From NCBI GenBank assembly GCA_029262455.1, contig JAJCZJ010000027.1, positions 1-64,000 on the forward strand: a stretch of 64,000 nucleotides of DNA. The letters run 5' to 3'. Positions 46,273 through 47,965 of the stretch are shown here, piece by piece; the first letter of the stretch is position 1, and each line of letters begins with the position of its first letter. The notes beneath the pieces were generated by a model. It saw only the letters and a program-made list of their open reading frames with translations. It did not search any database and was not told where the DNA came from. Source of the DNA: Deltaproteobacteria bacterium. GTDB lineage: Bacteria; Desulfobacterota; Binatia; HRBIN30; CADEER01. The position numbers and the translations under genes are program-made.

Positions 46273-46346
46273 TTCCGCACAACGAACTGCTACGGTGAAT
46301 GGCCGGGATGCGGGGCCGCAAAAAACTCGCGGGCAAGAACTTTGCA

Positions 46347-46488
46347 CGCAAGCGCCTTGCGGGAATGAGCCCCGGTAGCTGCTGCAGATGACTTCTGCCT
46401 CGCGGGTGATTAACGCGAGAGCTACCGGGTTCGTGGTGCCTGGGTCTCCAGGCTGGATCACCTCATGACAATGTGCCTTGCGGCACGT
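46347..46488. ncRNA. Candidate structured RNA: three-way junction with flanking hairpins and pseudoknot
   Basis: A perfect three-way junction spans 46371-46429: a 10-bp closing stem (CCCGGTAGCT with AGCTACCGGG), a 5-bp stem (GCAGA-TGACT-TCTGC) and a 6-bp stem (CTCGCG, 9-base loop, CGCGAG), leaving only GCT unpaired. The 9-base loop contains GGTGAT (46405-46410), which can pair with ATCACC (46457-46462). Hairpins flank it at 46347-46361, 46438-46453 and 46471-46488. Strand is undecided; a T6 run closes it on the minus strand near 46320. It matches no riboswitch class I know. Confidence 0.4.
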
Positions 46489-46589
46489 ACACCCGCCGTC
46501 CGTTGTTTCGCTGCACCTAGACCACGTCGCCCAATGCGACGGCGTCAGCTTCTCAACGGCGATACGAGTGCGAATCAATCGGAGTCGGC

Positions 46590-46634
46590 CTAAAGGGCCA
46601 CCACCTCACAAATCACCAAATAAATACTCGCCAC
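46590..46634 (-). CDS. Possible 14-residue leader peptide with extended ribosome-binding site
   Basis: On the minus strand AGAAGGGAGGTGATCCAG (46634-46651) is complementary to about 13 bases of the 16S rRNA 3' end. Seven bases past its GGAGG core is a GTG opening MASIYLVICEVVAL, a hydrophobic 14-residue peptide ended by TAG. The spacing is ideal, but no minus-strand gene follows closely, so it may be chance. Confidence 0.25.
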   Translation of the reverse strand: MASIYLVICEVVAL

Positions 46635-46882
46635 TGGATCACCTCCCTTCTCGGCGCCGCCAAACATTTGCAACGTCCCATCGTTGCTTCCGGGGGAGCG
46701 GTCGCCGACTACCGCGTCCCTCGATCGGCCCACTGGAAGCCGGCCCTTTGCCGTCTCCGTAGCCTGGTGGGGTCTGTGAAACCCGGACCGAAAATGCCAT
46801 GCCTCTAGATATACTCCTGTCTGTACTCGCGTTCCAATAAATTCGTTTCAACAAAGGTGGGGGGCCACCACTGCCCGCGCTA

Positions 46883-47965
46883 ATGCAAAAACCTTCATCG
46901 CTCCTTTACAATCTCATCCGACCGGCGCTGTTCCGCCTCTCGCCGGAAACTGCCCACGAGCTTGCGATGAGCCTTCTCCGCTTGGTTGAGCACCTACCAA
47001 TCCCGGTGGCTTCGACCGATGCGGGGCTGCGACAAGATCTTTGGGGACTTGAGTTCCCCAACCCCATCGGCCTCGCCGCCGGCTTCGACAAGAGTGCCAA
47101 ATTGCCACATGCCTGGTCGCGTTTCGGGTTCGGTTTCGCCGAACTCGGAACCATCACCGCTCGCCCACAGCCCGGAAACCCCAAGCCGCGGATCTTCCGA
47201 TTGCCCGAGGTCGAAGCCCTGATTAATCGCCTCGGCTTCAACAACGACGGCGCCGAAGCGGTTTCGCGCCGCCTTGGCCCGCAACTCCAGGCGGCGCCGG
47301 CGGCGATTCCGCTGGGACTCAACATCGGTAAGTCGGCAATCGCCCCGCTTACCGGGGCCGAGGAAGACTACCGCAGCAGCTACCGCTTGCTGGCGCCATT
47401 GGCAGACTACATCGCGATCAACGTGAGCTCTCCGAACACCAAAGGACTCCGCGATCTGCAGACCAGCGACGCCCTACTCCGGATACTCCAAGCCATTCGC
47501 GCGGATCCCCTACCACGCCGGCCGCCACTTCTGATCAAGATTTCACCCGACCTCGAGCCGTCGCAGCTACGCGACATCGTGACGTTCTGCCTCGACAACG
47601 AGGTCGCAGGCATCATTGCCACGAACACGACGCTAAGTCGCGACGGTATTTCGGCAGAAGCAAGGAATGGCTCCGAAAGCGGCGGGCTCAGTGGACGGCC
47701 GCTGACCGCACGCGCCACGAAGGTGATCGGCGAAGTGTGGCGTCTGAGCAGCGGAAACTTGCCCATCGTGGGTGCCGGCGGTGTGTTCAACGCTGATGAC
47801 GCCTTCGAAAAGATTCGCGCCGGGGCCAATCTCGTCCAAGTCTATACAGGTTTTGTCTACGGTGGCCCGGGACAGCCGCGCGCGATTGTCGAAGGATTGG
47901 GCCAGCGCCTCGAGCGAGAGGGCTTTGGGTCGATCGCCGATGCGGTCGGTTCGGCGGCTGGTTGA
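46883..47965 (+). CDS. pyrD: Dihydroorotate dehydrogenase (quinone), class 2
   Basis: PyrD oxidises dihydroorotate to orotate, passing electrons to membrane quinone. The 360-residue protein has the class 2 N-terminal helical extension (YNLIRPALFRLSPETAHELAM), GLAAGFDKSAKLP, the catalytic-serine loop NVSSPNTKGLRDLQ, ATNTTLSRDG, and the FMN-phosphate site GVFNADDAFEKI...GANLVQVYTGF. A GGTGG-CCACC hairpin covers the presumed ribosome-binding region. thiC follows after 50 bp. Confidence 0.94.
   Translation: MQKPSSLLYNLIRPALFRLSPETAHELAMSLLRLVEHLPIPVASTDAGLRQDLWGLEFPNPIGLAAGFDKSAKLPHAWSRFGFGFAELGTITARPQPGNPKPRIFRLPEVEALINRLGFNNDGAEAVSRRLGPQLQAAPAAIPLGLNIGKSAIAPLTGAEEDYRSSYRLLAPLADYIAINVSSPNTKGLRDLQTSDALLRILQAIRADPLPRRPPLLIKISPDLEPSQLRDIVTFCLDNEVAGIIATNTTLSRDGISAEARNGSESGGLSGRPLTARATKVIGEVWRLSSGNLPIVGAGGVFNADDAFEKIRAGANLVQVYTGFVYGGPGQPRAIVEGLGQRLEREGFGSIADAVGSAAG

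Follow-up and report, generated by a model that had tools for sequence, protein, structure and literature searches.

In the leader-peptide attenuators tnaC and trpL, a ribosome on a short ORF selects which of the alternative helices forms beside a terminator, and SgrS/SgrT represents the type of small RNA (sRNA) that encodes a peptide. Peptide-encoding sRNAs were surveyed in PMC5521070, in the accessible text of which a term search for the RNA described here gave no match. For S. aureus, an extended pairing of the Shine-Dalgarno sequence (SD) with the anti-SD, comprising two extra base pairs, was seen in the cryo-EM structure of one mRNA (PMC13009471, accessible text). Ms_IGR-5 (Rfam RF02471) is described, in the accessible parts of its sources, only as an actinobacterial sRNA: it is listed for Streptomyces lividans with support from RNA-seq (PMC8079986), S. 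avermitilis has it as an sRNA unit (PMC8780764), and in M. abscessus and M. smegmatis its homologues carried ribosome reads (PMC4974804), with the caution in the same paper that many non-coding RNAs carry ribosome footprints. The accessible portions of the open-access literature on Ms_IGR-5 describe no mini-ORF, 16S complementarity or function; in one open-access library, none of the titles listed named the present RNA, and none of those listed for its peptide strings was relevant.

In the window (the whole stretch of 64,000 nucleotides analysed), an initial annotation had placed a perfect three-way junction with a loop-to-downstream pseudoknot at 46347–46488. A genuine structured RNA lies there, but the interval covers only the 3' part of a longer element; as read from the sequence, the three-way junction is only the predicted 3' terminator domain of a longer small RNA on the minus strand, divergent from pyrD, the boundaries of which would lie near 46801 (start) and 46320 (end). 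This RNA, which several bacterial phyla share, probably works through contact with ribosomes; it carries a mini-gene of about 12–15 amino acids, preceded by a landing site for ribosomes that is unusually strong (Table 1). It is read here, with a modest degree of preference, as a stand-alone minus-strand sRNA of the Ms_IGR-5 (RF02471) superfamily that may serve as a ribosome-engaging sensor or parking RNA, its fold depending on translation of the mini-ORF. The predicted anatomy of the RNA is well supported; the function we infer.

Table 1. Predicted features of the small RNA and its surroundings (window coordinates).
Feature	Position	Strand	Basis and remarks
-35-like hexamer TTGGAA	46832..46837	-	by eye; 18 nt before the TATA-rich hexamer; common to L002-L004
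-10-like hexamer TATATC	46808..46813	-	sequence; probable transcript start near 46801
5' domain	46652..46801	-	CACAG and CGGCGGTC motifs common to Binatia and Rokubacteria loci, by eye
extended SD AGAAGGGAGGTGATCCAG	46634..46651	-	complementary to 16S rRNA 3' tail
mini-ORF GTG...TAG, 14 codons, MASIYLVICEVVAL	46590..46634	-	conservation of frame, spacing and stop
internal SD-like GAGGUG, exactly 9 nt before stop	46602..46607	-	counts in non-pattern loci
small hairpin around stop codon, GGCC-CUUUA-GGCC	46587..46599	-	by eye
insertion	46489..46580	-	also in L003, L005, L006, L010 (from the window's taxonomic order)
second GAGGUGAUCCAG copy	46453..46464	-	holds the pseudoknot partner first proposed; similar in L003-L005
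GCCUGG/CCAGGC hairpin	46438..46453	-	in fold; CCTGG..CCAGG recurs in many relatives
CACCAC strand, can pair with ORF GGUGGU	46433..46438	-	compensatory example L209
three-way junction, 3' domain, loop AUCACC	46371..46429	-	minimum-energy fold, shuffles, covariation
TTTTTT run after a further stem	46320..46325	-	sequence; probable end of RNA

The locus region was found by DNA search in 28 of 58 genomes (own genome and relatives) and contained two conserved blocks in those 28: the junction, and a block around 46580–46664 that in the oriented alignment reads, on the minus strand, as a ribosome-binding site followed by a mini-ORF. The RNA was assigned to the minus strand because of the mini-ORF, U-runs after the junction in relatives and promoter-like hexamers. 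The pair TTGGAA-18-TATATC (46837–46808) was seen by eye also in three congeners, counterparts of the -10-like hexamer being TATAAA (L002), TATAGA (L003) and TATAAA (L004); a generic promoter scan returned no promoter-like site, this pair included. A U-run after the junction was present in 78 of 101 loci by a loose pattern that gave some false hits and missed some true ones. An intrinsic terminator would have a GC stem followed by such a run; the window's T-run does not come until about 45 nt past the junction, and it is taken as the probable 3' end because no U-run directly follows the window's junction. Where actinobacterial loci were read over their whole length, a -10-like element stood just upstream of the SD; a separate 5' domain is apparently absent from Actinobacteria. 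A plus-strand reading, with CTGGATCACCTC twice in 200 nt as a mimic of the 16S 3' end, was dropped because the minus strand gave an SD and a conserved frame.

The initial annotation had linked the element to the pyrD–thiC genes and offered a metabolite-sensing RNA as one idea. The RNA is not their leader, because it is on the minus strand and transcribed away from them (pyrD at 46883, plus strand, PF01180), and no evidence of metabolite sensing emerged from the sequence comparisons. In the genus, and likewise in G004, about 0.25 kb separates pyrD from the RNA; the gap is about 0.8 kb in G013 and 2.6 kb in G006. Ten other class genomes compared (G018, G019, G024, G025, G031, G032, G038, G039, G045, G051) have the two unlinked, either on separate contigs or with more than 150 kb between them. 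A leader or attenuator of the gene downstream of the RNA itself would look similar in its mini-ORF, alternative pairings and terminator, but this reading is most improbable: the window's next gene is convergent with the RNA (holin-like, PF04020, 45889–46272, plus strand), and in 64 loci, by crude ORF calling, the nearest downstream ORF was on the same strand in 34 and on the opposite strand in 30, with no consistent same-strand gene. By eye, convergent downstream ORFs were DEAD-box-like at L081, L085, L091, L093, L103, L124, L139 and L142 and cold-shock-like at L121 and L145; Rokubacteria-type loci include both kinds.

The junction is real, conserved and covarying. Its 10-bp closing stem (46371–46380/46420–46429, 100% complementary), inner stems of 5 and 6 bp and three unpaired junction bases were found, as first described, in the minimum-energy fold of both strands (plus strand: −70.1 kcal/mol, z −3.4, a fold as good arising in 1 of 200 shuffles; minus strand: −63.0 kcal/mol, z −4.2, in 0 of 200). 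Covariation was counted over relatives in a 37-row alignment (A2; window included; loci without a cleanly cuttable stem omitted, e.g., L007, L118, L052, L056, L127, L010), with these results: closing stem, 97.8% of cells paired and double-sided changes at 6 of 10 pairs; helix 2, which is small and poorly aligned, 69.7% of cells paired; whole structure, 105 cells with changes on both sides, where shuffling gave 31.8 on average; covariation score 0.393, with shuffling 0.168 and with sliding 0.100 at most. These values bear out the earlier statement that the pairing exceeds chance. The excised 3' domain gave a three-way junction in 85 of 88 relatives' cores (of 96 cores, 8 could not be cut) against 85 of 440 dinucleotide shuffles. 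RNAalifold on a further alignment (A1), in which MAFFT misaligned the terminal stem, gave 17 pairs, none with double changes.

The other structural claims fared less well. Both segments of the proposed pseudoknot exist (GGTGAT 46405–46410; ATCACC 46457–46462), but the pairing lacked covariation support, and the partner segment is missing or altered in relatives beyond the window's close kin. Three separate flanking hairpins were seen in the fold; the four first described were not clear. A pseudoknot of the P3 loop with the ORF or the SD was likewise rejected for want of covariation: the loop base next to CACC agreed with the ORF GGUG in 46 of 61 cases (44.1 shuffled; 447 of 2000 shuffles as high) and with the SD GGUG in 63 of 84 (62.6 shuffled). 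A single default fold of the whole RNA was rejected as well, the predicted free folds being heterogeneous.

Relatives were collected by DNA similarity, by covariance models and by a sequence pattern. Model R1 was built on A1 from 40 sequences; it is mainly a sequence model with rough E-values, and at E ≤ 0.001 it matched 60 genomes out of 148 in the window's class (the window's genome among them; the RNA was undetected by R1 in the remaining 88), 82 out of 95 in Methylomirabilota, the phylum of the Rokubacteria (a minority of matches inspected singly), and 32 of 282 genomes in the phylum of a Myxococcales-titled locus (30 of the 32 inspected singly). Usually one locus per genome was present, double rows being mostly one locus split by an insertion. 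The match on the window (64.9 + 34.1 bits) is divided in two by the insertion listed in Table 1; in G158, G167 and G170 inserted sequence likewise separates ORF and terminal stem and breaks the match in two, so that these apparently represent a second lineage in which the middle region has expanded. The pattern scan of genome contigs returned 83 stretches, reduced to 80 loci, mainly from Rokubacteria/Methylomirabilota, Binatia and MAGs filed as Deltaproteobacteria, with two Myxococcales-titled and 7 from Actinobacteria. No match was obtained in a plasmid search with the element, and none (0) in the viral contigs searched. A MAG titled Klebsiella pneumoniae carries the RNA (L122, CAMBFS010000068.1); the title looks wrong. 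Genomes of family f5 gave 9 weak matches, of which L248, L249 and L250 were read; these copies are very divergent (27–39 bits; peptides ..CTDCEVAET or ..CCDCEVAET) and form a further branch of the family.

As the initial annotation had stated, no known riboswitch, ribozyme, 6S, SRP or tmRNA is recognisable; at Rfam gathering thresholds 0 matches were found in the 64 kb window. The window gave no match to the RF02471 model up to E 5, and neither it nor 12 related loci reached the gathering cut-off of 45 bits. The RF02471 model nevertheless matched 8 of these 12 non-actinobacterial loci at the RNA (25–36 bits, E 9e-5 to 0.05; the best, E 9e-5, over the full length 1–184), the matched relatives being used in or close to R1, and the other 4 gave no match up to E 0.5. 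In the opposite direction R1, trained without actinobacteria, picked up 23 of 30 RF02471-chosen loci at the corresponding position with E ≤ 1; 17 of them reached E ≤ 0.01, the lowest value being 6.5e-11. Within the phylum of a Nocardioides locus, 40 of the 198 genomes had RF02471 itself (20 over the cut-off); in control genomes the count was 0 of 14. The shared features recognised here (not Rfam's definition), namely the SD, GAGGUG 9 nt before the stop and the terminal stem, are present. Because the covariance-model matches are reciprocal, we conclude that the RNA and RF02471 share remote common descent, which is not formal Rfam membership; the superfamily spans Actinobacteria, Myxococcota, Methylomirabilota and Binatia (groups as titled in the records).

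The 16S tails used for comparison read CGGCTGGATCACCTCCTTT followed by AC or CT (one genome each, from Myxococcota and Methylomirabilota). As no 16S copy was identified in the window's MAG genome, we infer pairing in this organism from these tails of two related genomes. Contiguous SD–tail pairing of at least 13 nt, G-U allowed, was predicted in 142 of 147 loci (87/89 Binatia/Methylomirabilota/pattern, 28/30 Myxococcota/divergent, 27/28 actinobacterial) and of at least 16 nt in 126 of 147 (84, 15 and 27 in the same groups); one tail was applied to all lineages, that of Myxococcota differing at the last letters, and the 147 loci are counted without L056, L246, L193 and 7 actinobacterial pattern loci. 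In the 58 Myxococcota/divergent and actinobacterial loci that were not pattern-chosen, 73 changes at the distal positions 13, 15, 16 and 17 (G-U possible) keep the pairing and 8 break it; position 18 (no G-U possible) is broken in 19 of the 58 and position 12 in 2. The window's 7.3 Mb genome contains a single exact copy of the 13-mer CTGGATCACCTCC, the one at this locus, and 20 further sites with one mismatch. The complementarity extends over up to 21 nt tested, as would be expected of an RNA that pairs (pre-)16S 3' ends as a chaperone of assembly or 3' processing, the ORF marking productive ribosomes; this is very improbable, since the SD, the normally spaced start and the conserved frame already explain the complementarity.

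A conserved minus-strand protein had been named at the outset as evidence against the element; unexpectedly, the conserved mini-ORF at 46590–46634 was found on that strand, just outside the interval. All 28 loci obtained by DNA similarity keep the SD (13–18 of 18 reference letters), a start at 7–10 nt, an open frame of 13–15 codons and a stop. After removal of duplicates, 157 unique loci remained of up to 211. Those picked with GGAGGTGRTC and GTGAGGTGGT..CC...TAR (65 unique) were counted apart because this search pattern includes the ORF end, and its letters are invariant in them by design, having been used to pick them; the other 92, obtained by DNA similarity or covariance models, are related and not independent, and the model-chosen ones are biased toward GAGGUG because the covariance models contain it. 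An in-frame ATG, GTG or TTG start was present in 86 of the 92 (84 of these with 12–15 codons), near-cognate CTG, ATT or ATC stood at the start position in 5 more, and L270 had none; the other two frames gave 0 and 11 starts. The near-cognate codons were noted at the expected place in actinobacterial L272, L275, L277, L278 and L282, and the AUU start codon of infC is a parallel.

The GAGGUG site of the mini-ORF, complementary to CACCUC of the 16S rRNA, keeps its distance to the stop. In the 92 loci GAGGTG is kept in 89 and the stop (TAG 73, TGA 14, TAA 5) follows exactly 9 nt after this site in 91, being displaced in L198; the Glu codon is GAG in 90 (others AAG, CAG) and the Val codon GTG in 91; in six genes of the window, by comparison, GAG and GAA stand at 94 to 68, and GTG makes up 55 of the 248 Val codons. 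The Glu and Val codons thus appear fixed at the nucleotide level, unlike under pure protein constraint. Instead of an internal SD, pairing with CACC or an E-V motif in the peptide could account for the conservation of GAGGUG. A peptide ending in ..EVxxx-stop and acting as a small protein, the product proper of the RNA, would account for E-V at −5/−4 from the stop in nearly all loci (ends seen: ..CEVVAS, ..TASEVVAS, ..TAGEVVSC, ..TREVAAG, ..WTCEVIVT, ..CTDCEVAET), but is improbable: the N-terminal half varies freely, Glu and Val are held as GAG and GTG, and codons around the stop seem, by eye and uncounted, to co-vary with bases after it. By eye and uncounted as well, the arms of the stop-codon hairpin co-change in several relatives (GACC/GGUC, GCCC/GGGC, CGCC/GGCG, UGCC/GGCA), with exceptions (e.g., L101, L121). 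The findings suggest that an RNA filed as non-coding hides an ORF under strong selection.

The ORF can also pair downstream, the CACCAC partner of its GGUGGU standing just before the junction. L209, with the only GTA codon, has GGUAGUG and a matching downstream CACUACC; L244 and L246 have GGUGAU paired with GUCACC or AUCGCC; L249–L250 have GGUGGCUGAG with CUCAG(U/C)C(C/U)ACC. With own instead of foreign downstream strands the ORF duplex was 0.8–1.2 kcal/mol better in three large groups and 2.4–3.2 kcal/mol better in two groups of 3 loci. In several loci (e.g., L074, L248, L199, L265, L274) the best ORF duplex lay elsewhere than at the CACC strand; in many relatives, moreover, another GGUGG, located between the ORF and the junction, competes for this strand. 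By a rough ensemble cut, the strand's mean pairing with the ORF was 0.20, as against 0.37 with the middle region. Pairing of the ORF 3' half with the downstream strand is supported by examples but weakly by the aggregate. The same strand (CACCACC) and the UCACC loop of the junction might pair with GGUGA/GGUGG in target mRNA starts, which would make this a dual-function or plain antisense sRNA, its mini-ORF merely switching or stabilising the RNA. Invariance of the loop ACC in the 37 rows of A2 (L010, outside A2, has CGCC) and the fact that the gene stands alone agree with this; it is rather unlikely, and it leaves the fixed 9-nt stop distance and the long 16S-tail complement unexplained.

According to the preferred reading, that of a ribosome-engaging sensor or parking RNA, the extended SD would capture 30S subunits very tightly, and the ribosome would translate the mini-ORF, opening the pairing between ORF and CACCACC strand. 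Once the stop codon occupies the A site, GAGGUG would sit 6 nt upstream of the P-site codon, a usual SD spacing, so that the anti-SD could re-pair with it; re-pairing would hold the terminating or post-termination ribosome at the stop, with the downstream pairing kept open, and fix the RNA in a ribosome-bound fold. The published ribosome reads over MS_IGR-5 homologues agree with this reading, subject to the caution given in the same paper. The conformation of the RNA would then report initiation and termination capacity, possible outputs being ribosome storage, a sensor of termination/initiation capacity, or exposure of CACC-rich strands as antisense seeds. Tentatively, the RNAs of about four phyla could form a ribosome-parking class in which a mini-ORF lies between two anti-SD sites, the first spanning the 16S tail during initiation and the second re-pairing when the stop is in the A site, and a refolding RNA with a three-way-junction tail stores ribosomes or reports their status; actinobacterial Ms_IGR-5 would then be one branch of it.

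By its homology, an orphan actinobacterial sRNA becomes part of a superfamily across four groups. The mechanism proposed is specific and testable: an SD that spans the 16S tail would act with another anti-SD site, which keeps a constant 9 nt to the mini-ORF stop. It is testable in Mycobacterium smegmatis or Streptomyces, for which Ms_IGR-5 transcripts or ribosome reads were reported. Ms_IGR-5 has the same SD, mini-ORF, GAGGUG-9-stop and terminal stem; the present RNA differs in its 5' domain before the SD, its occurrence in other phyla and its peptide end (..CEVVAS against ..TREVAAG). With tnaC and trpL it shares a short ORF with alternative helices beside a terminator, whereas no regulated downstream gene is seen here and an extended SD and a stop-linked internal SD are present. 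It resembles the SgrS/SgrT type as an sRNA with a small ORF, but here the ORF lies inside a conserved fold, in fixed geometry to its stop, across phyla. With the S. aureus extended SD–anti-SD (PMC13009471, accessible text) it has pairing beyond the core in common; here, however, the long contiguous pairing (at least 16 pairs) is predicted in most loci and stands on an sRNA.
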